Assembly (NCBI RefSeq): GCF_900141825.1
Contig: NZ_FQYQ01000001.1
Span: forward strand, 310,001 to 374,000
Reading direction: 5' to 3'
Length of the DNA stretch: 64,000 bases
Source of the DNA: Pseudobutyrivibrio xylanivorans DSM 14809
Lineage (GTDB): Bacteria > Bacillota > Clostridia > Lachnospirales > Lachnospiraceae
The notes beneath the pieces were generated by a model. The model did no database searches and was not told where the DNA came from. It was given only the letters and a program-made list of their open reading frames with translations. Both the position numbers and the translations under genes were made by a program. Of this stretch, positions 8,530 through 27,720 are shown piece after piece. Each line of letters begins with the position of its first letter. Position 1 is the first letter of the stretch.

Positions 8530-9735
8530 ATGTTCGTATACGCAGATAACGCAGCAACAACTGCTGTTTCACCTAAAGTAGTTGAAGCAATGCTTCCATA
8601 TTTTACAGAGGTTTATGGTAATCCATCCAGCCTCTATTCAGTAGGACAGAAGGCTAAGGAGGTTCTCGAGGAATCAAGAGAGAGAGTAGCAAAGGTTCTT
8701 GGCGCTTCGCCTAGAGAGATTTATTTCACATCAGGCGGTAGCGAGGCTGATAATCAGGCTATCATCTCAGCAGCCAGAATCGGAGAGAAGAAGGGAAAGA
8801 AGCACATCATCTCCACAAAGTTCGAGCATCACGCAGTACTTCATACTTTACAGGCTCTTGAGAAGGAAGGCTTTGAAATCGAACTTCTTGACGTACATTC
8901 AAATGGTGTTGTATCTGCACAGCAGGTAGCAGATGCTATCCGTGAGGATACAGCTCTTGTAACTATTATGTATGCTAACAACGAGATTGGAACAATTCAG
9001 CCTATCGCTGAAATTGGTGCTGTATGTAAGGAAAGAGGAGTTCTTTTCCATACAGATGCTGTTCAGGCAGTTAGCCATGTTCACATCGATGTAAAGGAGC
9101 AGAACATTGATATGCTTTCAATTTCAGCGCATAAGTTCCACGGTCCTAAGGGCGTTGGTGTGCTTTATGCCAGAGGCGGAATCGTTCTTACAAACGTAAT
9201 TAACGGTGGTGCTCAGGAGAGAGGTAAGCGTGCCGGCACAGAAAACCTTGCAGGTATAGTCGGACTTACAGTAGCCCTTGAGGATGTGGTTGCTCACATT
9301 GATGAGACAAATGAGAAGCTTGAAAAGCTTCAGGACAGATTAATCGAAGGTCTTTCAAAGATTCCTTATTCAGAGCTTAACGGTGACAGAAATTTAAGAG
9401 TAAAGTCAAACGTAAACTTCTGTTTTGAAGGAATCGAAGGAGAATCACTTCTTTTATTATTAGATGACAAGGGAGTGGCAGTTTCATCAGGTTCTGCCTG
9501 CACATCAGGTTCACTTGACCCAAGCCACGTGCTTCTTGCAATTGGCAGACCACATGAGGTTGCACACGGTTCACTTAGAGTTTCACTTGGTGAGGATGCA
9601 ACAGAGGAGCAGGTTGATTACATCATCAAGTCTGTTTCAGAAGTAGTTGAATACCTTCGTGGATTTTCACCATTCTGGGGTGATTTAGTAAGTGGCAAGC
9701 GTCCACACGTATTTGCAGAGCACACAGTGGCTTAA
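8530..9735 (+). CDS. nifS: Cysteine desulfurase (NifS/IscS family)
   Basis: The 401-residue PLP enzyme removes sulfur from cysteine to form a persulfide for Fe-S cluster assembly. PLP-lysine is K202 in [12 protein letters not shown]; the persulfide-forming cysteine is C324 in [10 protein letters not shown]. The N-terminal YADNAATT is the family hallmark. The start has AGAAAGGG upstream. It is followed after 31 bases by the scaffold gene nifU. The C-terminal 20 residues ([17 protein letters not shown]) match the NifS form common in clostridia. The palindromic operator at its promoter suggests Rrf2-type control. Confidence 0.95.
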
Positions 9736-9766
9736 TTAATAGACAGAAGTAATTGGAGGAAAAACA

Positions 9767-10201
9767 ATGGCATTATATAGCGAAAAGGTCATGGACCATT
9801 TTAGAAACCCAAGAAATGTAGGAGTAATTGAAAATGCAGATGGTGTAGGCGAAGTCGGTAACCCAGTCTGTGGTGACATCATGAAAATCTATCTTAAGAT
9901 AAATGATGAGCAGATTATTGAGGATGTAAAGTTTGAGACTTTCGGATGCGGCAGCGCTATTGCTTCATCTTCAATGGCAACAGAGCTTATTATGGGAAAG
10001 CCTGTATCTGAGGCACTTCAGCTTACAAACAAGGCTGTTACAGAGGCACTTGATGGACTGCCAGCTCACAAGCTTCACTGTTCAGTTCTTGCAGAGGAGG
10101 CAATCAAGTCTGCAGTAAAGAATTACTATGATAATAATGGCATTGAATATGATCCAAAGGATTTCCCAGATCCTGAGGTTGAGTCTTGCCACATGCATTA
10201 A
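9767..10201 (+). CDS. nifU: NifU/IscU-type Fe-S scaffold protein
   Basis: The 144-residue protein is the N-terminal NifU (IscU) scaffold only. The three cluster ligands are C35 (NPVCGD), C61 (FGCGSA) and C105 (LHCSVL), with the conserved D37. It receives sulfur from the desulfurase encoded just upstream and builds [2Fe-2S] or [4Fe-4S] clusters. GGAGG precedes the ATG. The C-terminus ends in CHMH, a short Cys/His tail seen in several clostridial homologues. Confidence 0.95.
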   Translation: MALYSEKVMDHFRNPRNVGVIENADGVGEVGNPVCGDIMKIYLKINDEQIIEDVKFETFGCGSAIASSSMATELIMGKPVSEALQLTNKAVTEALDGLPAHKLHCSVLAEEAIKSAVKNYYDNNGIEYDPKDFPDPEVESCHMH

Positions 10202-17116: not shown

Positions 17117-17256
17117 GTTGATTTATGTAATACTATTATTTGTTATTCTACGTGGTGAGTAAGAAAGGTTTACAGGGGGTTTTGTTGTTATTAATATAAT
17201 TGATACCCAGCTATCATAAAATGTGGGAACCAGGTTTATTGACCTGGTTCTTTTAT
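17117..17256 (+). promoter_or_regulatory. Leader with terminator hairpin upstream of the importer/CooS operon
   Basis: GAACCAGGT (17227-17235) pairs with ACCTGGTTC (17242-17250) and is followed by TTTTATT, a good intrinsic terminator. No plus-strand gene precedes it, since the neighbour upstream is divergent. A possible promoter for the leader is TTGTTT, 17 bases, TATTAT in the 17110-17145 region. This suggests a short terminated leader RNA. I do not recognise a riboswitch class in it. Confidence 0.4.
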
Positions 17257-17284
17257 TCTGTTATTATCCTACTAACCTAGTAGG
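17239..17284 (+). promoter_or_regulatory. Importer/CooS operon promoter and Rrf2-like operator
   Basis: TTGACC (17239-17244) and TATTAT (17262-17267) are spaced by exactly 17 bases. Directly after the -10 is the palindrome CCTACTA ACC TAGTAGG (17268-17284), 7-bp arms around 3 bases. Its right part, ACCTAGTAGG, is identical to the element before the cysteine operon. Binding there would block initiation. Confidence 0.6.
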
Positions 17285-17322
17285 CGATAGGAATTTATTG
17301 AGATAAAGTGGAGGATAACAAT

Positions 17323-18249
17323 ATGAAAAAATACTTACTATTAACATCATTACTAATCATTTCATTATTTGCTTTAGTTGGCTGTGGTAGCGCCAAAGCA
17401 AGTGAATCAGCAGAAACTGTGAAGATTGCTTATCTTCCAATTACTCATTCGCTTGCGGCATTGGAGGAAGCAGAGGAGCTTGCGAACAATGATAAGGTGA
17501 GAGTTGAGCTTGTGAAATATGGTTCATGGCCAGAGCTTTTGGACGCACTCAATTCAGGCCAGGTAGATGGAGCATCAGTACTCATTGAGCTTGCCATGAA
17601 ATCAAAAGCGGAGGGTGTTGGAATAAAGGCAGTTGCTCTTGGCCATAAGGATGGAAATGTAATAATCGTTTCAAATGATGTTAAAGATGGGGCAGATTTA
17701 AAGGGAAGAACAATTGCTATTCCACATCGCCAGTCATCACATAACATTTTAGTAAATGATGCCTTAGCAAAAGATGGTCTTACAATCGATGACATTAATG
17801 TGGTAGAGCTTGCTCCTACAGAAATGCCTTCAGCCCTTGCAGCTGGAACAATCGATGGCTACTGCGTAGCTGAGCCATTTGGAGCTATGGGTGTTTCAAT
17901 TGGAGCAGGAAAGGTTCTTTATACATCAGAGGAACTTTGGGAGGATTCAGTATGCTGCGCCTTAGTTCTTACAGATGATTTTATCGATAATCACGCAGAT
18001 ACAGCAAAGGCTTTTGTAGAGGGTTATAAGACAGCAGGAAATAATCTTGATGCAGACACAGCAAAGGCTGTTGCACAGAAATATTTAAATCAGAAGGATG
18101 ATGTTCTTGATATTTCTCTCAAGTGGATTTCATATGATGATTTGACAATCACAGAGGACCAGTACAACGAGCTTGCTGAGAAGGTAAAGTCTTATGGTCT
18201 TTCAGACAATCCACCAGCATATGCTGATTTCGTAAAAAGTGACTTTTAA
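17323..18249 (+). CDS. SsuA/TauA/NMT1-like ABC substrate-binding lipoprotein
   Basis: The 308-residue protein has a signal peptide with a lipobox (LVGC, Cys at about residue 21), so it is anchored on the outer face of the membrane. The fold is that of the nitrate/sulfonate/taurine/thiamine-precursor binding group: VKIAYLPITHSLA, GQVDGASV, GRTIAIPHRQSSHN and DGYCVAEPFGAMG. The ATG at 17323 is chosen because GGAGG lies 10 bases upstream; an in-frame GTG at 17308 overlaps that site. The ligand cannot be read from sequence. It is the first gene of an operon with permease, ATPase and a CooS-like protein, behind a promoter shared in design with cysteine genes. Confidence 0.85.
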   Translation: MKKYLLLTSLLIISLFALVGCGSAKASESAETVKIAYLPITHSLAALEEAEELANNDKVRVELVKYGSWPELLDALNSGQVDGASVLIELAMKSKAEGVGIKAVALGHKDGNVIIVSNDVKDGADLKGRTIAIPHRQSSHNILVNDALAKDGLTIDDINVVELAPTEMPSALAAGTIDGYCVAEPFGAMGVSIGAGKVLYTSEELWEDSVCCALVLTDDFIDNHADTAKAFVEGYKTAGNNLDADTAKAVAQKYLNQKDDVLDISLKWISYDDLTITEDQYNELAEKVKSYGLSDNPPAYADFVKSDF

Positions 18250-18270: not shown

Positions 18271-19032
18271 ATGAAAAGACTAATCTCTCTCAAATATGTA
18301 ATCGTTTCAATACTAATATTAATAGCGATATGGCAATTCGCATTTACGATAAGTGATTATAGTGAGGCACTGTTTCCATCACCTTTAATGGCACTTCAGG
18401 CCTTGGTGGAAATGATAGCTGATGGAACACTTATTGCATCAATCGGAGCCAGCATGTACAGATTTGTAATTGGTTACGGACTGTCAGTAGTTATCGCAGT
18501 GTTTCTAGGATTGATTTTGGGAAGCCTGCCAAGGGTATTTAACTATGTAAATCCAACCTTGCAGTTGCTTCGACCAATTTCGCCAACAGCATGGATGCCA
18601 TTTGTAGTTCTCCTTTTTGGTATTGGAGATCTGCCAGCAATTGTCATTATTTTTATCGCAGCATTTTTCCCAGTGTTGTTATCTACAGTATCTGCTGTTT
18701 CAAAGATTGATGACATCTATTTCAGGGTATCTGATAATTTTGGAATCAAGCAGCCTGCACTTATGTGGAAGGTGATTTTACCTGCTGCGTTTCCACAAAT
18801 CGCAAATGCGATACATTTGGCGCTTGGAAGCGCCTGGATATTCCTTGTAGCAGGTGAAATGGTAGGTGCTCAGTCTGGACTAGGATATCAGATTATTGAT
18901 GCCAGAAATAACATCAGAGCAGATATTCTTCTTGCCACAATATTGGTGATTGGCTTGATAGGTTTATTACTTGATTTCTTAATTGGACTTGCTGAAAAGA
19001 GAATTCTTAAAGCATGGGGAGGTGAAAGCTAA
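18271..19032 (+). CDS. SsuC/TauC-like ABC transporter permease
   Basis: The 253-residue integral membrane protein has about six TM helices and the BPD_transp_1 fold. The EAA-like coupling loop is near FGIKQPALMWKVILPAAFPQIANAIHLALGSAWI's start, around residues 150-175. The early LFPSPLMALQALVEM and PTAWMPFVVLLFGIGDLPAI are typical of sulfonate/nitrate-type permeases. It starts 21 bases after the binding protein and its stop overlaps the ATPase start by one base (TAATG). Confidence 0.9.
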   Translation: MKRLISLKYVIVSILILIAIWQFAFTISDYSEALFPSPLMALQALVEMIADGTLIASIGASMYRFVIGYGLSVVIAVFLGLILGSLPRVFNYVNPTLQLLRPISPTAWMPFVVLLFGIGDLPAIVIIFIAAFFPVLLSTVSAVSKIDDIYFRVSDNFGIKQPALMWKVILPAAFPQIANAIHLALGSAWIFLVAGEMVGAQSGLGYQIIDARNNIRADILLATILVIGLIGLLLDFLIGLAEKRILKAWGGES

Positions 19033-19805
19033 TGTCATACATTCATATTGAAAATGCTGGAAAGACTTTTGTGGAAAATGGCATAGAATTCACAGCCTTA
19101 TCAGACGTAAATCTTGATATAGAAAAGGGAGAGTTTATCTGCTTACTTGGACCATCAGGATGCGGAAAAAGTACATTGCTTAATGCAATAGCAGGTTTTG
19201 ATCTGGCGAATCATGGACGTGTCCAAATCGACGGAAAAGAGGTCACAGCTCCTAGTACAAAGAATGTTACTATCTTTCAAAACTACGGGCTTTTACCATG
19301 GCGCACAGTAGTGAAAAATGTAGAGCTTGGTCTTGAAGCTCAAGGGATTGATAAGAAAACAAGAAGAAAGAAGGCTTTAGAGTACCTTAAGCTTGTGAAG
19401 CTTGAGGATTTTGCAAACAGCTTCCCACGACAGCTTTCAGGTGGCATGAAGCAAAGAGTTGCAATAGCAAGAGCCCTTGCGGTGGAGCCAGATATCATTT
19501 TCATGGATGAGCCCTTTGGAGCTCTTGATGCTATCACAAGAATGAAGCTTCAGGATGATATTTTAGATATTTGTAAAAATGAAAAGAAGACTATTATCTT
19601 CGTTACTCACGATATCGAAGAGGCGGTTTACTTGGCAGATAGAATTGTTGTAATGACACCTAATCCTGGCAAAGTAAAGGGGGTAATTACAGTTCCGCTT
19701 CATCATTTCAGAGACAGAACCAGCGGAGATTTCTTATTAGTAAGAGATAAGATTTTTGATTTGCTAAATATGAAGATTGAAGACAATATCGAATATACGA
19801 TTTAA
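19032..19805 (+). CDS. SsuB/TauB-like ABC transporter ATPase
   Basis: The 257-residue ATPase has Walker A GPSGCGKST, the Q-loop in IFQNYGLLPWRTV, signature LSGGMKQRVAIARA, Walker B IIFMDEPFGALD and H-loop VTHDIEEAVYLADRI. LLPWRTV after the Q-loop is characteristic of the nitrate/sulfonate/taurine subfamily. It energises the permease encoded directly upstream. The CooS-like gene follows after 28 bases with its own ribosome site. Confidence 0.93.
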   Translation: MSYIHIENAGKTFVENGIEFTALSDVNLDIEKGEFICLLGPSGCGKSTLLNAIAGFDLANHGRVQIDGKEVTAPSTKNVTIFQNYGLLPWRTVVKNVELGLEAQGIDKKTRRKKALEYLKLVKLEDFANSFPRQLSGGMKQRVAIARALAVEPDIIFMDEPFGALDAITRMKLQDDILDICKNEKKTIIFVTHDIEEAVYLADRIVVMTPNPGKVKGVITVPLHHFRDRTSGDFLLVRDKIFDLLNMKIEDNIEYTI

Positions 19806-19833: not shown

Positions 19834-21954
19834 ATGAGTCACATACACAATGCTACAGAAGAACACTGTCACAGCCATGAGCACAGTCATTCACATTCTC
19901 ATGGTAAGCATGGCCTTGAGCACATTCACTCTCACAGAAATCTTATAGGATTCGATGAACATGGAATTCCTACTGTTACTTTAAAAGCCAGTGATCATGG
20001 CGGAGAAAGCAGTCCGGAGGATTTTACTAGAGATTATATGAACGCCGTACAGGAATACAGAAAGACATTTCCTTCAAAGCAGGATGTAATCGACCAGACT
20101 CCAGACCCGGCAGTAAGAGATATGCTTCTTCGAATGGAACAGCTTGGAATCGATACAGCCTTCGACAGATTTGATGCCCAGAAGCCTCAGTGTAACTTCG
20201 GTCTCTGTGGTACCTGCTGTAAGATTTGTAATATGGGCCCATGTCGTATTACCGCTAAGGCGCAACGAGGTGTGTGCGGCGCAGATGCAGATTTGATTGT
20301 TGCAAGAAATCTTCTTCGCTCAGCAGCAGCTGGTGCAGCTCAGCATGGCATGCATGCCCGTGAGGTTATGCTTACACTTAAAAAGGTTGCAGAAGGAGAG
20401 CTTGATATTCCACTTCTAGGTGAGCAGAAAATTAGAAGCACAGCAAAGGCATTTGGAATCAGAGAAAAGAACAGACAGCTTAAAAATGTAGCAAAGGATT
20501 TGGCGGATGTTCTTTTAGAGGATTTATCTAGAACAGTTCCTGATGATTACAAAACCATCAGAGCCTGTGCACTTCCAGAGCGTCAGAAGGTGTGGGAGGA
20601 ATTAGACATCCTTCCAATCAGTGCTTATCACGAAGTATTTGAGGCTTATCATAAATCAGGTTGTGCTACTGACGGAGATTGGAAGAGTGTAATGCAGCAA
20701 TTTTTACGTTGCGGTCTTGCCTTTACATTTTCAGGTGTAGTAGGTGCCAGCCTTGCAACAGACTCATTATTTGGTGTTGGTGACAGAGTTACATCAAAGG
20801 TAAATATTGGAGCTCTTGAAAAGGGCTATGTAAATATTGCTGTTCACGGACATCTTCCAACACTTGTTAGCCAAATTGTGGCAGCTGGAAAGAGAGAGGA
20901 CTTGGTGGCTCTCGCAAAGGAAAAGGGAGCAAAGGGAATTCGTTTTTACGGTATTTGCTGTTCAGGACTTTCAGCCATGTACAGAGACAGCGGTGTTATT
21001 CCTCTTTCAAATGCAGTATCAGCAGAGCTTGTACTTGGAACAGGCGCACTTGATCTTTGGGTAGCAGATGTGCAGGATGTATTCCCATCAATTATGGATG
21101 TTGCAAAATGCTTTAAGACTGTTGTGGTTACCACAAGTGATTCAGCGCGACTTCCAGGTGCAGAAAGATATGAATATGACCATCACCACAGCAACATTGG
21201 ACAGACAAAGGAGCTTGCAGAAAAGATAGTTAGACGTGCGATTGAAAGCTTTGAGGATAGAAAAGGCATCCCTGTATATATTCCACCTTATGAGGTAGAG
21301 GCAGAGGTAGGATTCTCAGTAGAGTATATCCATAAGAGATTTGGCAGCATGAAGCCTCTTGCAGAGGCTATTAAGTCAGGGCAGATTCTTGGTGTTGTAA
21401 ATATGGTTGGTTGCAACAATCCAAAGGTACTTTACGAGAAGTGCATTATTGATGTGGCAGATGAGCTTCTTAAGAATAACGTTCTTATCATCACTAACGG
21501 CTGCGCATCCTTCCCACTTATGAAGCTTGGCTACTGCGCTGTTTCTGGAAAGGAAAAGGCTGGAGAATCATTAAAGGAATTTTTAGAGCCAGATCTTCCA
21601 CCAGTATGGCATGTGGGAGAGTGTATCGATAACACCCGTTCTACAGGAATCTTTGCAGGAATTGCAGGAGAGCTTGGAAAGAATCTTTACGAGCTGCCAT
21701 TTGCTTTCTCATCACCTGAGTGGGGAAATGAGAAGGGGATTGATGCAGCACTTGGCTTCAGGCTTAATGGTATCAGTTCATACCACTGTGTGGAGGCTCC
21801 AATCTACGGTTCAAAGAATGTAATCGAGTTCTTAAAGTATGGTACAAAGGATTTGCTTGGCTCAACAATGAACGTAAATACAGACCCAGTGGAACTTGCT
21901 AAGCAGATAGTGAATGATATGAAGGAGAAGAGAAAGGCTTTGGGCTGGGATTAA
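19834..21954 (+). CDS. CooS-family carbon monoxide dehydrogenase-like protein, variant C-cluster, His-rich N-terminus
   Basis: The 706-residue protein aligns with catalytic Ni-CODH. Residues about 3-35 hold a His-rich stretch (SHEHSHSHSHGKHG), which family members of about 630 residues lack and which could bind nickel. B- and D-cluster cysteines are intact in QCNFGLCGTCCKICNMGPC and GVCGAD. For the C-cluster, the HGH (338-340), C376 (GICCSG), C527 (VGCNN), C557 (NGCAS), C597 (GECIDN) and the acid/base K634 are present. The position of C. hydrogenoformans CODH-II Cys333 is Asp415 (VADVQDVFP instead of DYQCIQP), and the usual CTGNE is CSGLS. The activity may therefore differ from CO oxidation. 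No cooC or cooF lies nearby. The ATG at 19834 has AGGGAG upstream. Confidence 0.85.
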   Translation: MSHIHNATEEHCHSHEHSHSHSHGKHGLEHIHSHRNLIGFDEHGIPTVTLKASDHGGESSPEDFTRDYMNAVQEYRKTFPSKQDVIDQTPDPAVRDMLLRMEQLGIDTAFDRFDAQKPQCNFGLCGTCCKICNMGPCRITAKAQRGVCGADADLIVARNLLRSAAAGAAQHGMHAREVMLTLKKVAEGELDIPLLGEQKIRSTAKAFGIREKNRQLKNVAKDLADVLLEDLSRTVPDDYKTIRACALPERQKVWEELDILPISAYHEVFEAYHKSGCATDGDWKSVMQQFLRCGLAFTFSGVVGASLATDSLFGVGDRVTSKVNIGALEKGYVNIAVHGHLPTLVSQIVAAGKREDLVALAKEKGAKGIRFYGICCSGLSAMYRDSGVIPLSNAVSAELVLGTGALDLWVADVQDVFPSIMDVAKCFKTVVVTTSDSARLPGAERYEYDHHHSNIGQTKELAEKIVRRAIESFEDRKGIPVYIPPYEVEAEVGFSVEYIHKRFGSMKPLAEAIKSGQILGVVNMVGCNNPKVLYEKCIIDVADELLKNNVLIITNGCASFPLMKLGYCAVSGKEKAGESLKEFLEPDLPPVWHVGECIDNTRSTGIFAGIAGELGKNLYELPFAFSSPEWGNEKGIDAALGFRLNGISSYHCVEAPIYGSKNVIEFLKYGTKDLLGSTMNVNTDPVELAKQIVNDMKEKRKALGWD

Positions 21955-22057: not shown

Positions 22058-22091
22058 ACCTATTGACCTAGTAGGTAATGTGAATTATTAT
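22058..22091 (+). promoter_or_regulatory. Cysteine operon promoter with Rrf2-like operator over the -35
   Basis: TTGACC (22063-22068), 17 bases, TATTAT (22086-22091). The -35 lies inside the palindrome ACCTATTGACCTAGTAGGT (22058-22076), which matches the nifS promoter element at 15 of 19 positions and shares ACCTAGTAGG with the importer/CooS operon. A repressor bound here would exclude RNA polymerase. Confidence 0.65.
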
Positions 22092-22133: not shown

Positions 22134-22217
22134 ATGAAACAACTTTTAATTTCTTTTGTAAGACACAACTGTAAAAACGGCCGAATGCAAAGCTCAAATT
22201 GTTATTACTGTTGTTAA
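22134..22217 (+). CDS. Cysteine-codon leader peptide of the cysteine operon
   Basis: This 27-residue open frame begins MKQLLISFVRHNCKN and ends SSNCYYCC. Four of 27 codons are TGT, three of them among the last five. It has its own ribosome site (GAAAGGG about 10 bases before the ATG) and lies between the promoter and metY; the stop is 29 bases before the metY start codon. Leader peptides rich in the codon of the pathway's product act as sensors of charged tRNA. Scarce Cys-tRNA would stall the ribosome at the very end of the peptide, next to the metY ribosome site. No terminator hairpin was seen after it, so control may be at translation or by Rho. Confidence 0.7.
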   Translation: MKQLLISFVRHNCKNGRMQSSNCYYCC

Positions 22218-22246: not shown

Positions 22247-23578
22247 ATGGCAAACTATAGATTTGAAACATTAGCACTTCACGTAGGTCAGGAAAATCCA
22301 GATCCAGCATCTGATGCAAGAGCAGTACCTATTTACCAGACAACATCTTATGTATTTAGAGATTCACAGCACGCAGCTGACAGATTTGGTCTTGCAGATG
22401 CAGGAAATATTTATGGTAGACTTACAAACTCTACACAAGGTGTTTTAGAAGAAAGAGTAGCAGCTCTTGAAGGTGGCACAGCAGCTCTTGCAGTTGCATC
22501 TGGTGCAGCAGCTATCACATACACAATCGAGGCACTTGCAGCAGGCGGCGGACATATCGTAGCACAGAAGACAATCTACGGTGGAAGTTACAACTTACTT
22601 GCACACACACTTCCACAGTACGGTGTTACAGCTACATTTGTAGATGCTCACAACCTTAAAGAGGTTGAGGATGCAATTCAGGAAGACACAAAGGCAATCT
22701 ACATCGAGACACTTGGCAATCCAAATTCAGATATTCCAGATATTGATGCACTTGCAGAAATTGCTCACCGTCATGACCTTCCACTTGTTGTTGATAACAC
22801 ATTTGGTGCATCTTACTGGGTACGTCCAATAGAGCACGGCGCAGACATCGTAGTTCACTCAGCTACAAAGTTCTTCGGAGGTCACGGAACAACACTTGGT
22901 GGCGTTATCGTAGAAGCAGGCACATATGATTGGAAGAAGAGCGGCAAGTTCCCTAATATTGCAGATCCAAATCCTAGCTATCACGGAATCTCATTTGCTG
23001 ATGTTACTTCACCTGCAGCATTCGTAACATACATTAGAGCAATCCTTCTTCGCGACACAGGAGCTACAATCTCACCATTTAATGCATTCCTTCTTCTTCA
23101 GGGAATCGAGACATTACCACTTCGTCTCGACAGACATGCGGAGAATACTACAAAGGTAGTTGAGTTCCTTAAGAATCATCCAAAGGTTTCTAAGGTTAAC
23201 CATCCATCGCTTGAGGATCATCCAGACCACGAGTTATATAAGAAGTACTTCCCTAAGGATGGCGGAAGCATCTTCACATTCGAAATCAAGGGTGGCAAGG
23301 AAGCAGCATTTAAGTTTATCGACAATCTACAGATTTTCTCAATCCTTGCAAATGTAGCTGATGTAAAGAGCTTAGTAATTCACCCAGCAACAACAACTCA
23401 CTCACAGCTTACAGAGGAAGAGTTGCTTGATCAGGGAATTACACAGTCTACAATCAGACTTTCAATTGGTACAGAGCACATTGATGACATCATTGAGGAT
23501 CTTGAAAAGGGCTTTGCAGCAATTGACGGAATTAATAACGTAAATACGGATTCAAAAAATAATAGCCAGGCAGTATAA
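22247..23578 (+). CDS. metY: O-acetylhomoserine (thiol)-lyase
   Basis: The 443-residue PLP enzyme of the Cys/Met metabolism family uses O-acetylhomoserine and sulfide (or methanethiol) to make homocysteine (or methionine). MetY-specific features are the opening FETLALHVGQE, PIYQTTSYVFRDSQHAADRF and the long C-terminal third. The PLP lysine is in VVHSATKFFGGHGTTLGG. AAAGGAG precedes the ATG. It is the first structural gene after the Cys leader peptide and is followed by cysK after 44 bases, so both sulfide-fixing routes are in one unit. Confidence 0.94.
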   Translation: MANYRFETLALHVGQENPDPASDARAVPIYQTTSYVFRDSQHAADRFGLADAGNIYGRLTNSTQGVLEERVAALEGGTAALAVASGAAAITYTIEALAAGGGHIVAQKTIYGGSYNLLAHTLPQYGVTATFVDAHNLKEVEDAIQEDTKAIYIETLGNPNSDIPDIDALAEIAHRHDLPLVVDNTFGASYWVRPIEHGADIVVHSATKFFGGHGTTLGGVIVEAGTYDWKKSGKFPNIADPNPSYHGISFADVTSPAAFVTYIRAILLRDTGATISPFNAFLLLQGIETLPLRLDRHAENTTKVVEFLKNHPKVSKVNHPSLEDHPDHELYKKYFPKDGGSIFTFEIKGGKEAAFKFIDNLQIFSILANVADVKSLVIHPATTTHSQLTEEELLDQGITQSTIRLSIGTEHIDDIIEDLEKGFAAIDGINNVNTDSKNNSQAV

Positions 23579-23622: not shown

Positions 23623-24555
23623 ATGGCAAACATTTACAAAAGCGCATCAGAACTTATCGGAAACACACCACTTGTTGAGGTTACAAACATTGAAAAGGAG
23701 CTTGGTCTTGAGGCTACAGTATTAGTTAAGCTTGAGTACTTCAATCCAGCAGGCTCTGTAAAGGATAGAGTAGCACTTGCTATGATTGAGGATGCAGAGA
23801 AGAAGGGACAGCTTAAGGAAGGTTCAGTTATCATTGAGCCTACATCAGGAAATACAGGTATCGGTCTTGCAGCTATTGCAGCAGCAAAGGGCTATCGTGC
23901 AATCCTTACAATGCCTGAGACAATGTCAGTAGAGCGCAGAAACATCCTTAAGGCATACGGTGCAGAAATCGTACTTACAGAAGGTGCTAAGGGTATGAAG
24001 GGTGCTATTGCAAAGGCAGAGGAGCTTGCAGCTGAAATCGAAGGAAGCTTTATCCCAGGACAGTTCGTAAATCCAGCAAACTCAGCAGCACACCGCGAGA
24101 CAACAGGTCCAGAGATTTGGAGAGACACAGACGGAAAGGTTGATCTATTCATCGCTGGTGTTGGTACAGGCGGAACTGTTACAGGTGTTGGCGAGTACCT
24201 TAAGAGCCAAAATCCAAACGTAAAGGTTGTAGCTTTAGAGCCAAAGGATTCTCCAGTTCTTTCTGAGGGCCATGCAGGTGCTCACAAGATTCAGGGTATC
24301 GGTGCAGGTTTCGTACCTGATGTACTTAACACAGAAGTTTACGATGAAATCTTCACAGCGGAGGCTGATGATGCATTTGCAGCAGCAAAGCTTCTTGCAA
24401 AGAAAGAAGGTATCTCAGTTGGTATCTCTTCTGGTGCAGCACTTCACGGTGCAATCGAGTACGCTAAGAAGCCAGAGAACAAGGGCAAAACAATTGTAGC
24501 TCTTCTCCCAGACTCAGGCGACAGATACTACTCAACACCACTTTTCACAGAATAA
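23623..24555 (+). CDS. cysK: Cysteine synthase (O-acetylserine sulfhydrylase)
   Basis: The 310-residue PLP enzyme makes L-cysteine from O-acetylserine and sulfide. PLP lysine is in NPAGSVKDRVALAM; the phosphate loop is GVGTGGTVTGVGEYL; the substrate loop is EPTSGNTGIGLA. KIQGIGAGFVPDVL is typical of CysK. CGGAGG precedes the ATG. The giant palindrome starts at its stop codon, so the 3' end of this transcript would be folded into that structure if it is not terminated before. Confidence 0.96.
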   Translation: MANIYKSASELIGNTPLVEVTNIEKELGLEATVLVKLEYFNPAGSVKDRVALAMIEDAEKKGQLKEGSVIIEPTSGNTGIGLAAIAAAKGYRAILTMPETMSVERRNILKAYGAEIVLTEGAKGMKGAIAKAEELAAEIEGSFIPGQFVNPANSAAHRETTGPEIWRDTDGKVDLFIAGVGTGGTVTGVGEYLKSQNPNVKVVALEPKDSPVLSEGHAGAHKIQGIGAGFVPDVLNTEVYDEIFTAEADDAFAAAKLLAKKEGISVGISSGAALHGAIEYAKKPENKGKTIVALLPDSGDRYYSTPLFTE

Positions 24556-25277
24556 ATTTTGGTTGAATAATGCTTATATGCGGTTCCTTGCTTAGGCGGG
24601 GGCCGCTATTATTTTGCTCAATTTAGTGTATTGAGAAATAGCCCACCATGCTACCGTGCCCTGCCCAGTTCTCCTGCAGCATTTGAGCAAAATGTTAGAT
24701 TTTTTTAAGCTGCTGGTGGAGCTTTAAGTGGGTGTCCTTTCATTGATTTTGCACTTCGAAAAGAATGCTGTGCTTTCCACAGACATGTTTTTTGTCTATA
24801 AATATTCTCCAAAGTTATTTGTTGAGGTTGCTTCCATATTCCGTTTGCTAAGTAGAACTTAAAAAGAGATATTTGTTTGTAAGGGCACCGTGGCACATTC
24901 AACGTCCTGTTTCAAGTGACCACTGCTGCCGCCGTCCTAGCGGCAGCTGCCCTTACAATTCAAATATCTCTTTAAGTTCTACTAAGCTCACTCCAAATAT
25001 CCAGCAACCTTCAACAAAAATTTTGGAGAATAATTCATAAAATATATTTCATGTCTGTGTTAAGCACACATTCTTAATAGAAGTGCAAAGAATGGAAAGA
25101 ACACCCACCAATAAAGAAAGCGACACGCAGCTTATAGAAAATCAACATTTTGTGATTGGGCAGGAGAATGGGCAGGGCACGGTAACATGGTGGGCTATTT
25201 CTATATGTTTTATGAGCAAAATAATAGCGGCACCAATATTAAAGGAACCGCATATAGCATATTATTCAAACAAAATT
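24555..25277. repeat. Giant imperfect palindrome (about 720 bp) between cysK and feoAB
   Basis: The left arm runs inward from AATTTTGGTTGAATAAT at the cysK stop. The right arm is its reverse complement, ending in ATTATTCAAACAAAATT. Matching blocks in order, left with right, are: 24575-24589/25242-25256; 24602-24620/25213-25231 (perfect 19 bp, GCCGCTATTATTTTGCTCA); 24634-24677/25160-25202; 24688-24711/25127-25153; about 24728-24786/25051-25111; about 24804-24832/25002-25032; 24845-24887/24948-24990. By eye about three quarters of positions pair, along nearly the whole length. Interruptions are small loops and bulges. There is no credible gene: the two open frames inside have no ribosome site and differ between arms. 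Single-stranded, it would form a rod of about 320 bp with a branched tip. It could be a structured RNA, an old MITE-like element or a cruciform. Confidence 0.85.
24878..24957 (+). other. Branched tip of the giant palindrome
   Basis: TGTAAGGGCA (24878-24887) pairs with TGCCCTTACA (24948-24957). Inside are two hairpins. One is GTGGCAC (24890-24896) with GTGACCAC (24916-24923) and a 19-nt loop. The other is CTGCCGC (24926-24932) with GCGGCAG (24940-24946) and the loop CGTCCTA. The six bases CGTCCT occur in both loops (24903-24908 and 24933-24938). The tip is far more GC-rich than the arms. Confidence 0.7.
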
Positions 25278-25359: not shown

Positions 25360-27720
25360 TTGAATTTAAGTACGTTAGAAATAGGCAAGACTGCCACGGT
25401 AAGGTCGGTTGGTGGAAGCGGTGCACTGCGTCAGCATTTTCTGGATATGGGTATTATTCCTGGTTCAGATGTGTCCATGATAAAGTATGCTCCTATGGGA
25501 GATCCAATCGAGCTTCGTATATCCGGATATGAGCTTACCATCAGACTGGCAGATGCTAAGCAAATAGAAATTGAGAATATAAGAAATACAGCTGAGGTGG
25601 AGAAGAATCAAAAGAAGCATGAAAAAAGTATTCCCCATCCAGCACTTGGTGAAGAGACGCTCACTCATGATTATGAGGTAGAGCACAAGGCAAAGGAAGT
25701 TAATACTGGCAAGCTTACTTTTGCACTTGTGGGAAATCAGAACTGTGGAAAGACTACACTTTTCAATCAGCTTACTGGTGCAAATCAGCATGTTGGTAAT
25801 TTCCCTGGTGTCACAGTAGATAGAAAGAGTGGCTCAATAAAGGGCTATCCAAATACTGAGGTGGTGGATCTTCCTGGTATTTATTCTATGAGCCCATATA
25901 CCAGCGAGGAGGTAGTATCTCGTCGTTTCGTATTAGAGGAAAAGCCATCGGCTATTATCAATATAGTTGATGCTACAAATATTGAGAGAAATCTGTATCT
26001 TACCATGCAGCTTTTAGAGCTGGAGATTCCTACAATTCTCGCCCTTAATATGATGGATGAGATGGCAGGAAATGGTGGCTCAGTGCTTATTAATGAGCTG
26101 GAGGATTTACTGCAGATTCCTGTTGTTCCAATTTCTGCATCTAAGAATGAAGGTATAGCGGAGCTTGTTTCCCATGCTATTCATATTGCAAAGTATAATG
26201 AGAAGCCAGGGCGTAATGATTTCTGTGGCAAGGAAGATCACAATGGTGCAGTTCATAGAGCTATCCATGGTGTTATGAGCTTGATTGAGGATCATGCAGA
26301 AAAGGCTGATATTCCTATTAGATTTGCTGCAACAAAGCTTCTAGAGGGAGATTCACTTGTTACAAAGGCTCTTGGTCTAGATGATAATGAGGCTGATACC
26401 TTAGAGAAGATTATCCTTCAGATGGAAAAGGAGAGAGGTCTTGATAGAGCAGCTGCCATGGCGGATATGCGATTTACTTTTATAAATCGTATATGCGAAG
26501 AGACAGTTATCAAGCCTAAGGAGAGTAAGGAGCATATCAGAAGTAGAAATCTTGATAAGTTCTTCACTGGTAAGTGGACAGCTATTCCAGCGTTTATCGG
26601 AATTATGGCTCTTGTGTTTTATCTTACCTTTAACGTGGTAGGCGCATTCCTACAGGGAGTGCTTGAAACGATTATAGGTGCAATTACCGATTCCGTAGAC
26701 AATGTGCTTACAGCAGCCAATGTTGCGGCACCTATCCATTCCTTGATTATAGATGCTATTTTTACAGGTGTTGGTTCGGTGCTTAGCTTTGTGCCAATCA
26801 TTGTTGTTTTATATTTCTTCCTTTCTATGCTTGAAGACAGCGGATATATGGCACGTGTAGCTTTTGTTATGGATAAGCTTCTTAGAAGAATTGGTCTTTC
26901 TGGTCGAAGTATCGTTCCGATGCTAATTGGTTTTGGATGTTCAGTGCCAGCCATTATGTCTACACGTACATTGCCATCTGACAGAGATAGAAAGATGACA
27001 CAGCTTCTTATTCCATTTATGAGCTGTAGTGCAAAGATGCCGATTTACGCATTCTTTGCAGCTGCATTCTTCCCAGATAAGGCGGCCCTTGTTATGGTAG
27101 TGCTTTATGTGATTGGAATAGTGGTGGCTGTAGTGGTAGCGCTATGTACGAAGAATACTATGTTTAAGGGTGAGGCAGTTCCTTTTGTAATGGAGCTTCC
27201 AAACTACAGATTACCTGGTCTTAAGAATGTATTGATGCTTATGTGGGATAAGGCTAAAGACTTTATCCAAAGAGCTTTCACAGTAATTTTCCTAGGAACA
27301 ATTGCAGTGTGGTTCCTGCAGAACTTTAACTTTTACTTCCATATGGTGGAATCATCAGAAGAAAGTATTTTAGCAGCTTTGGCCGGAGTTCTTGCTCCTA
27401 TATTTATTCCACTTGGCTTTGGAAACTGGAAGATGGTAACATCACTTATTTCAGGCTTCCTTGCAAAGGAAAGCGTAGTTTCAATGATTACTGTACTTTA
27501 TGGTGGAGCAGAAGGTTTACAGGCAGAGCTTACTCCTCTTACAGTTTTTGTGTTCCTGATTTTCTGCTTGCTTTACACACCTTGTGTTGCTGCAATAGCT
27601 GCAGAAAAGAGAGAAGCTGGACGCAGAGCTGCTCTTAAGATGGTTATCTTCCAGTGCGCAGTAGCATGGCTCATAGCATTTATAGTTAGAGCAATAGGTC
27701 TTGCACTTGGATTTAATTAA
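25360..27720 (+). CDS. feoB: FeoA-FeoB fusion, ferrous iron transporter
   Basis: The 786-residue protein has an N-terminal FeoA (SH3-like) domain at about 1-75 (GKTATVRSVGGSGALRQHFLDMG), a linker, then FeoB. The G domain has G1 GNQNCGKTT, the switch GNFPGVTVDRKSG, G3 DLPGIYS and G4 NMMD. The polytopic membrane part starts at about 405 and includes two Gate-type regions (GCSVPAIMSTRTL and SCSAKMPIY). It imports Fe2+. The start is a TTG at 25360 with GAGGAG 8 bases upstream; the next ATG would remove half of the FeoA domain. Fused FeoAB occurs in several anaerobes. Iron supply suits the Fe-S enzymes encoded nearby. Confidence 0.95.
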   Translation: MNLSTLEIGKTATVRSVGGSGALRQHFLDMGIIPGSDVSMIKYAPMGDPIELRISGYELTIRLADAKQIEIENIRNTAEVEKNQKKHEKSIPHPALGEETLTHDYEVEHKAKEVNTGKLTFALVGNQNCGKTTLFNQLTGANQHVGNFPGVTVDRKSGSIKGYPNTEVVDLPGIYSMSPYTSEEVVSRRFVLEEKPSAIINIVDATNIERNLYLTMQLLELEIPTILALNMMDEMAGNGGSVLINELEDLLQIPVVPISASKNEGIAELVSHAIHIAKYNEKPGRNDFCGKEDHNGAVHRAIHGVMSLIEDHAEKADIPIRFAATKLLEGDSLVTKALGLDDNEADTLEKIILQMEKERGLDRAAAMADMRFTFINRICEETVIKPKESKEHIRSRNLDKFFTGKWTAIPAFIGIMALVFYLTFNVVGAFLQGVLETIIGAITDSVDNVLTAANVAAPIHSLIIDAIFTGVGSVLSFVPIIVVLYFFLSMLEDSGYMARVAFVMDKLLRRIGLSGRSIVPMLIGFGCSVPAIMSTRTLPSDRDRKMTQLLIPFMSCSAKMPIYAFFAAAFFPDKAALVMVVLYVIGIVVAVVVALCTKNTMFKGEAVPFVMELPNYRLPGLKNVLMLMWDKAKDFIQRAFTVIFLGTIAVWFLQNFNFYFHMVESSEESILAALAGVLAPIFIPLGFGNWKMVTSLISGFLAKESVVSMITVLYGGAEGLQAELTPLTVFVFLIFCLLYTPCVAAIAAEKREAGRRAALKMVIFQCAVAWLIAFIVRAIGLALGFN

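Follow-up and report, generated by a model that had tools for sequence, protein, structure and literature searches.

Structural group B-1 of the clade B carbon monoxide dehydrogenases (CODHs), as given by Inoue et al. in Table 2 of PMC6344411, has Asp or Glu at the second cysteine of the C-cluster together with an N-terminal His-rich region, and all clade B groups are linked there with NitT/TauT ABC transporters, for which nickel import was proposed. The CODH-fold protein CooS-V of C. hydrogenoformans likewise carries one acidic C-cluster ligand, its Cys295-to-Glu exchange giving a hybrid cluster without CO activity (PMC9311411). Related importers are known from sulfur metabolism: in Rhodobacter capsulatus, the isethionate reductase IsrBHDK with SsuCAB serves the anaerobic assimilation of sulfonate sulfur (PMC11423573), and in S. 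aureus the operon NWMN_0115-0119, which includes a sulfonate-type importer, is listed in the CymR regulon and is 11.5-34-fold down with sulfide, with cnt metal importers up (PMC5480029). Here, we analysed a window of 64,000 nucleotides from Pseudobutyrivibrio xylanivorans DSM 14809 (contig NZ_FQYQ01000001.1, positions 310,001 to 374,000), in which a CooS-like protein of group B-1 is encoded at the end of an importer operon.

The four genes of this operon, all on the + strand like the other features located below by window position (unless marked otherwise), encode a substrate-binding lipoprotein (SBP) of the SsuA/NitT family (17308..18249), an ABC transporter permease (18271..19032) and ATPase (19032..19805), all identified by profile and family searches, and finally the CooS-like protein of 706 aa (19834..21954), assigned by open reading frame (ORF), profile, alignment, structural model and tree. 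They are separated by 21 bp, a one-base overlap and 28 bp. The next genes are those of an O-acetylhomoserine sulfhydrylase (OAHS; 22247..23578; TIGR01326, 615.7 bits, cut-off 495.1) and the cysteine synthase cysK (23623..24555; TIGR01139, 447.1 bits, cut-off 350.95). We consider it probable that in this operon a CODH scaffold has been repurposed for anaerobic sulfur acquisition together with a co-regulated importer. The computation directly yields the operon structure, an operator shared with sulfur genes, the co-occurrence with the importer, a neighbourhood of Cys/Met genes, and a clade-wide rebuilding of the active-site shell.

The predicted promoter of the operon is sigma-70-like (TTGACC-N17-TATTAT, 17239..17267, found by eye). 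Just after its -10 element, a pattern search located the operator CCTACTAACCTAGTAGG (17268..17284), of which a second copy, CCTATTGACCTAGTAGG, precedes OAHS-cysK (22059..22075); the recurring form is CCTAYTRACCTAGTAGG, and the motif CCTA-N9-TAGG is shared upstream of clade B operons. With up to three mismatches, the 18-base operator pattern occurs twice in the window against 0.14 expected, and none of 100 shuffles held two. In the whole genome, the only sites without mismatch are those of the ABC/CODH operon and of OAHS-cysK, and the single 1-mismatch site (C10:270330, locus L196) belongs to an operon encoding an OAHS-like enzyme, a sulfite-reductase-family protein, TusA, ThiF, JAB and a tetrapyrrole methylase/HemD protein (the names of a thioredoxin and a hemC-type gene there were assigned by eye). 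A 24-bp palindrome seen by eye over the -35 element of the ABC/CODH promoter, GAACCAGG-N8-CCTGGTTC (17227..17250), recurs over the -35 box of this sulfite-reductase operon (G000:C10). Two of the four 2-mismatch sites lie before metK, nifH-like and nifE/D-like genes (C10:234320, L193) and before genes for a sulfate-binding protein, permeases, an ATPase and AprA (C10:250739); the other two fall inside unrelated genes.

The same arrangement extends to related genomes, for which whole-genome searches covered the phylum of the window. Ten CODH-positive genomes (taken from 18 in the family that are clade-B-positive, 8 of the ten being of the same genus) gave 65 matches with at most two mismatches, compared with 20 for a reversed control pattern. 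Each of the ten has one operator match 2533-2609 bp from the CODH match, directly in front of the SBP gene; among the 8 same-genus genomes, 7 have another match preceding sulfite reductase. A weight matrix derived from the genus placed 13 of 80 further clade B upstream regions, all outside the 13 training loci, above the 99% null level (0.8 expected), compared with none of 20 control CODHs; the positive regions come from Lachnospiraceae, Ruminococcus, Lachnoanaerobaculum and a Planctomycetia metagenome-assembled genome (MAG). Because the operator recurs before sulfur genes and does so across genomes, we assign the operon to a sulfur or cysteine regulon. From the likeness of the operator to CymR boxes, we infer that it may bind a cysteine-responsive repressor of the CymR-like (Rrf2) type.

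Several observations concern this putative regulon in its own right. Before OAHS lies a possible leader peptide of 27 codons ending in NCYYCC-stop (22134..22217, by eye); small Cys-run ORFs occupy the same place in L054, L061 and L062, the relatives ending in CCCCYCC-stop or CCCSRCC-stop, and judged by this pattern they are likely cysteine attenuation leader peptides. At L193 (G000:C10:234320 onward), a nitrogenase-like system stands behind the sulfur operator in a rumen Lachnospiraceae, perhaps a reductase of the isethionate or methylthio-alkane type; since it lies under the same operator, the cell may employ both types of reductase in parallel. The idea that sulfite reductase and CODH exclude one another was rejected, as sulfite reductase is present in 12/12 CODH-positive and 6/8 CODH-negative genomes. 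Control of the operon by a riboswitch or T-box was likewise set aside, no Rfam family reaching gathering score in six related loci; the window gave only a TwoAYGGAY RNA motif (24837-24997, - strand, 61.9 bits, gathering 43), which lies between cysK and a feoB-like gene at 25360.

Sulfur genes also recur as neighbours. Among loci flanked on either side by 8 kb or more (54 of clade B and 17 of the 20 control CODHs, the latter being the best-scoring non-B matches), genes of the cysK, OAHS or MalY type, the MalY profile being built from one sequence, were found within 11 kb at 18 of the 54 clade B loci and at none of the 17 controls, and an Rrf2 regulator nearby at 6/54 and 0/17, respectively. Because the clade B set includes close relatives, the 18 loci are not 18 independent events, and in three of them (L057, L058, L073) the sulfur gene is 8.7-10 kb away. 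By eye, there are about ten different gene orders: CODH-OAHS-cysK in the window, L054, L061 and L062; cysK-ABC-CODH-OAHS in L064; OAHS-cysK-ABC-CODH in L066; cysK-OAHS-Rrf2-ABC-CODH in L085; ABC-CODH-OAHS-cysK-Rrf2 in L088; LysR-OAHS-aminotransferase-cysK-CODH-ABC-Rrf2 in L097; CODH-ABC-cysK in L112; RidA-OAHS-MalY-CODH-ABC in L138 and L144; RidA-OAHS-OAHS-CODH-ABC in L146 and L147; and Rrf2, cysK or OAHS at 6-9 kb in L145 and L148. The importer is far more constant: an SBP gene accompanies CODH at 50 of the 54 clade B loci and at none of the 17 controls, and within the genus its distribution coincides with that of CODH (15 of 29 genomes, the same ones). The SsuABC-like operon named in an earlier note on this sequence is real. 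In Ruminococcus albus 7, the operon is carried by the plasmid NC_014825.

The CooS-like protein itself agrees with group B-1 in all described respects, namely D/E at the second cysteine, the His-rich N-terminus (19834..19935, with 13 His among residues 1-34), the type II D-cluster and the NitT/TauT ABC neighbour; the proposed role differs, being nickel import for CODH there and a sulfur function here. The earlier note had recognized the Asp and the His-rich extension from the sequence alone, and both are there, as it said, and are already published as structural group B-1 (PMC6344411), so that they are not new. We compared 97 clade B sequences (the window protein, the best 80 loci, L053-L132, of a GTDB contig scan that gave at least 490 relatives among its candidate stretches, and 16 Clostridia loci, L133-L148) with 21 non-B sequences (20 loci and CODH-II of C. 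hydrogenoformans). In a phmmer alignment with CODH-II (7err), Asp415 (codon 21076..21078) stands opposite Cys333, and five of the six C-cluster ligands are kept: H340 (=H261), C376 (=C295, retained in 97/97), C527 (=C446), C557 (=C476) and the Ni-ligand cysteine C597 (=C526). The sole replaced ligand is Asp in 91 and Glu in 6 of the 97 clade B sequences and Cys in 21/21 non-B CODHs; Asp415 is thus no sequencing accident, and no other cysteine takes the Cys333 position, the possibility that the earlier note had held against its own placement. The presumed acid-base residues are conserved as well, H171 (=H93) in 97/97 and K634 (=K563) in the 96/96 sequences with a residue there, as are the B- and D-cluster cysteines C129, C132, C137 and C148 (97/97) and, in a 38-sequence alignment, C120 and C128; the spacing C120-X7-C128-C129 agrees with the type II D-cluster definition (Cys-X7-13-Cys-Cys). 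The alignment thereby upholds the equivalences and retained clusters claimed before, including the change of CCTGNE to CCSGLS (noted earlier as CTGNE to CSGLS).

Around these ligands, the second shell has been rebuilt throughout the clade. In CODH-II numbering, D219 is F in 97/97 clade B sequences (D in 19/21 non-B), N298 is L, S525 is E, S94 is G and A480 is P, each in 97/97, I567 is A in 96/96, and A564 is G in 95/96. The changed positions flank His93, Cys295, Cys476, the Ni ligand Cys526 and Lys563; CODH-II variants at 93, 295, 563 and 567 appear among PDB titles, which shows that these sites are regarded as active-site positions. In addition, all 97 clade B sequences and none of the 21 others have an internal five-residue insertion with D-[HR]-x-H-[SA]-N, in which D449, H452 and N454 are invariant (D449-H-H-H-S-N454 in the window protein, 21178..21195, located by alignments). 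The insertion, the second-shell changes and the operator go beyond those parts of PMC6344411 that we covered. Because the second shell is altered clade-wide and the operon lies in a sulfur regulon, a substrate other than CO, as the earlier note suspected, is favoured, while the modified NiFe cluster that it also suggested would be a possibility at most. Of the assay substrates that it listed, the data single out none (COS, CS2, cyanate), though sulfur as a theme does fit.

In a tree of 66 dereplicated sequences, the D/E proteins group together in a single clade (branch length 6.79, support 100/100), within which Glu arose once in this sample; long-branch warnings apply to three non-B sequences (L172, L171 and CODH-II). 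MAGs labelled Planctomycetota, Pseudomonadota, Campylobacterota and Bacteroidota are nested in this clade, which suggests that the gene moved between bacteria of rumen and gut, or else that these MAGs were mis-binned. Two short fragments (L023, G009:C15:96064-96171; L024, G006:C160:2-100) match the protein over its final 33-36 residues only, with 81-88% identity, apart from the intact copy, and could be remnants of a second CODH copy.

Put together, a shortage of sulfur (cysteine or sulfide) would cause the repressor to leave the two palindromes and thereby switch on the four-gene operon, whose lipoprotein-dependent ABC importer would bring in a small compound that presumably carries sulfur. 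A dimer of the CooS-like protein, receiving low-potential electrons via its D and B clusters, may then act on this compound, reducing or cleaving it at an Fe-S (perhaps Ni-containing) cluster with one carboxylate ligand and a pocket that the Ile-to-Ala change has made wider; sulfide could leave directly, or sulfite via the co-regulated sulfite reductase, to reach OAHS and CysK. If the operon does serve sulfur acquisition, an alkanesulfonate-type compound is the likeliest import, at about even odds; thiocyanate-, thiosulfate- and COS-like species are other candidates. More tentatively, and falling somewhat short of an even call, we suggest that the enzyme cleaves a C-S (or S-O/S-N) bond of the imported compound, providing, after the flavin monooxygenases used in air and the nitrogenase-like reductases used without it, a third metallocluster scaffold for sulfur scavenging that has been passed horizontally between anaerobes of rumen and gut across several phyla; the same tentative proposal includes the make-up of this scaffold, i.e. 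a C-cluster with one Cys replaced by Asp/Glu, a pocket enlarged by the exchange of Ile567 for Ala, a new D-x-x-H-x-N loop and electrons of ferredoxin level. Should this be right, the operon would resemble IsrBHDK with SsuCAB in joining an Ssu-type importer to a low-potential metallocluster reductase, with the difference that IsrBHDK has a nitrogenase-like scaffold and depends on a radical SAM partner and an ATP-driven reductase (PMC11423573), neither of which is encoded in the CooS operon.

Several results weigh against a sulfur function. In the genome, operator matches with three mismatches do not exceed the control (21 vs 36), and because of this the two such sites with suggestive surroundings, one before an operon of JAB, MoeB-ThiF, family 2A encapsulin and class V aminotransferase genes and one before an amino-acid ABC operon with a divergently oriented Rrf2 gene beside it, count little alone. 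The Rrf2 protein at the latter site falls below both family cut-offs, with 94.3 of the 195 bits required for CymR and 97.5 of 207.55 for IscR, and regulators of the Rrf2/IscR type also serve Fe-S and iron control. Outside the training loci, 67 of the 80 clade B upstream regions are below the operator threshold, and 36 of the 54 well-flanked clade B loci have no cysK, OAHS or MalY gene within 11 kb. Group B-4, i.e. clade B with Cys, lies outside the sample. Finally, the three conserved His and two Cys of the SBP, like the enzyme's His-rich tail, resemble metal-handling features, and the bridge from the SBP to the S. aureus operon, described below, relies on the assumed locus tag of 3un6 and on gene order and annotation. 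As for the encapsulin locus itself (L195, G000:C10:259409 onward), it encodes a JAB protease, a MoaD/MoeB-ThiF-rhodanese protein, a family 2A encapsulin shell and a cysteine-desulfurase-like class V aminotransferase, and family 2A encapsulins have been reported as sulfur stores.

The metal-like features lead to the strongest competing explanation, that of Inoue et al., in which the ABC transporter serves nickel uptake, storage or insertion of the metal falls to the His-rich tail, and the enzyme is a CODH whose C-cluster is altered. The nearest solved structure to the SBP is 3un6 of S. aureus (E 4.8e-67), which we take to be SAOUHSC_00137 and which, by gene order, would correspond to NWMN_0117. 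With 3un6, 85 clade B SBPs share H47, H113, H145, E189, C216 and C217 (at least 97% conserved), a pocket that could hold a metal, and 3un6 is called a metal-binding protein in PMC6344411; the His-rich terminus and the retained equivalents of H93, K563 and the Ni-ligand Cys526 would also suit a nickel enzyme. Set against this are the operator, which is that of sulfur genes, and the clade-wide replacement of the D219, I567 and N298 equivalents. Moreover, SAOUHSC_00136-00138 are annotated as an ATPase, a binding protein and a permease of the sulfonate/nitrate/taurine type (PMC3128592), and the matching S. aureus operon NWMN_0115-0119, which has the same gene order and an SBP of the homologous family, appears to be under CymR and responds to sulfide in the opposite direction to the cnt metal importers; it differs in that, as listed, it includes no CODH, its flanking genes being called 'hypothetical' and 'putative CiaA' (PMC5480029). 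HypB exceeds its cut-off in 20/20 genus genomes, with or without CODH, so that nickel handling does not track the operon; by the same token, genome content fails to discriminate and was dropped as a guide to nickel dependence. On balance, we regard nickel import for an otherwise CO-active enzyme as unlikely.

Still less probable is that the protein is a sulfur- or redox-sensing, regulatory or cysteine-sparing variant rather than a catalyst that frees sulfur. The loss of one Cys ligand and the sulfur regulation of the operon are what such a protein might show, while its one-to-one co-occurrence with the importer and the kept B- and D-cluster cysteines and catalytic Lys and His fit an electron-fed enzyme better.

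A hybrid-cluster enzyme like CooS-V, acting with an Fe-S-O cluster on nitric oxide (NO), hydroxylamine or peroxide in stress defence, is a marginally weaker candidate again, and improbable. CooS-V demonstrates that an acidic ligand exchange in a CODH fold can yield such a cluster (PMC9311411). The AlphaFold model of the CooS-like protein (pTM 0.82, mean pLDDT 78.6) matches CooS-V at Z 51.3 (7b7q_A). However, the exchanged ligand is Cys295 in CooS-V and Cys333 here, where Cys295 is kept, and the model is closer to the CODH 6t7j_B (Z 56.4, root-mean-square deviation 2.4, 612 residues aligned), with other solved CODHs down to a Z of about 46 and the class III hybrid cluster protein (HCP) 7e0l_A at 27.9. 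Instead of the Glu typical of HCP, Asn632 (96/96 sequences with a residue there) stands two positions ahead of the catalytic Lys, a Prismane gene of the HCP type (604 bits) exists separately in the genome, and neither an importer nor sulfur regulation would be expected for NO detoxification.

Ordinary interconversion of CO and CO2, in the service of CO-dependent biosynthesis or of redox balance, is very improbable, for although the protein exceeds the cut-off of the NCBI anaerobic CODH model TIGR01702 (499.3 bits vs 478) and keeps the acid-base His and Lys, a C-cluster ligand and the second shell are changed in 97/97 sequences, this importer is missing from all 20 control CODH loci, and a full-length acetyl-CoA synthase was not seen in the genome, where the sole trace is a CdhC match of 34.7 bits within a frame of 240 aa. 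A Wood-Ljungdahl link was rejected on the same count, such weak CdhC matches in frames of about 240 aa occurring in 8/12 CODH-positive and in 8/8 CODH-negative genomes.

The assignment of clade B to sulfur is new with respect to the literature searched, in which no sulfur role for a CODH clade is proposed in the covered parts of, among others, PMC6344411, the 2026 survey PMC13056359, PMC8776680 and PMC11338639, and among the literature listings searched there was no sulfur-source study of these rumen species; PMC2869319, from the regulator literature, has none of the locus tags sought. Clade B CODHs occur in hundreds of gut and rumen genomes (a human-gut survey has 493 clade B genes, PMC11338639), where they are counted as CO users, and such counts would be wrong if the sulfur role holds. 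It would also give a clade without an assigned role one that can be tested by growth, and would mean that the CODH scaffold supports sulfur chemistry. Strict anaerobes are not known to use the oxygen-dependent Ssu/Tau monooxygenases, and a sulfur role for clade B would help to answer how they obtain organic sulfur.

Some clade B loci have further neighbours. A pair of small membrane proteins (f4/f5), without a Pfam match, is encoded directly beside the CODH gene in 23-28 loci, mostly of Ruminococcus (L068-L114 and others; 9166-9914 in L102). In L146 (5161-6009) and L147 (5206-6054), the RidA-OAHS-OAHS-CODH-ABC cluster is headed by a sulfur transferase gene that looks LarE-like by eye, Pfam giving only a weak NAD_synthase match. 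In L124, a locus without an adjacent importer, a gene for an anion channel of the SLAC1/TehA type (8984-9928) directly precedes the CODH gene.

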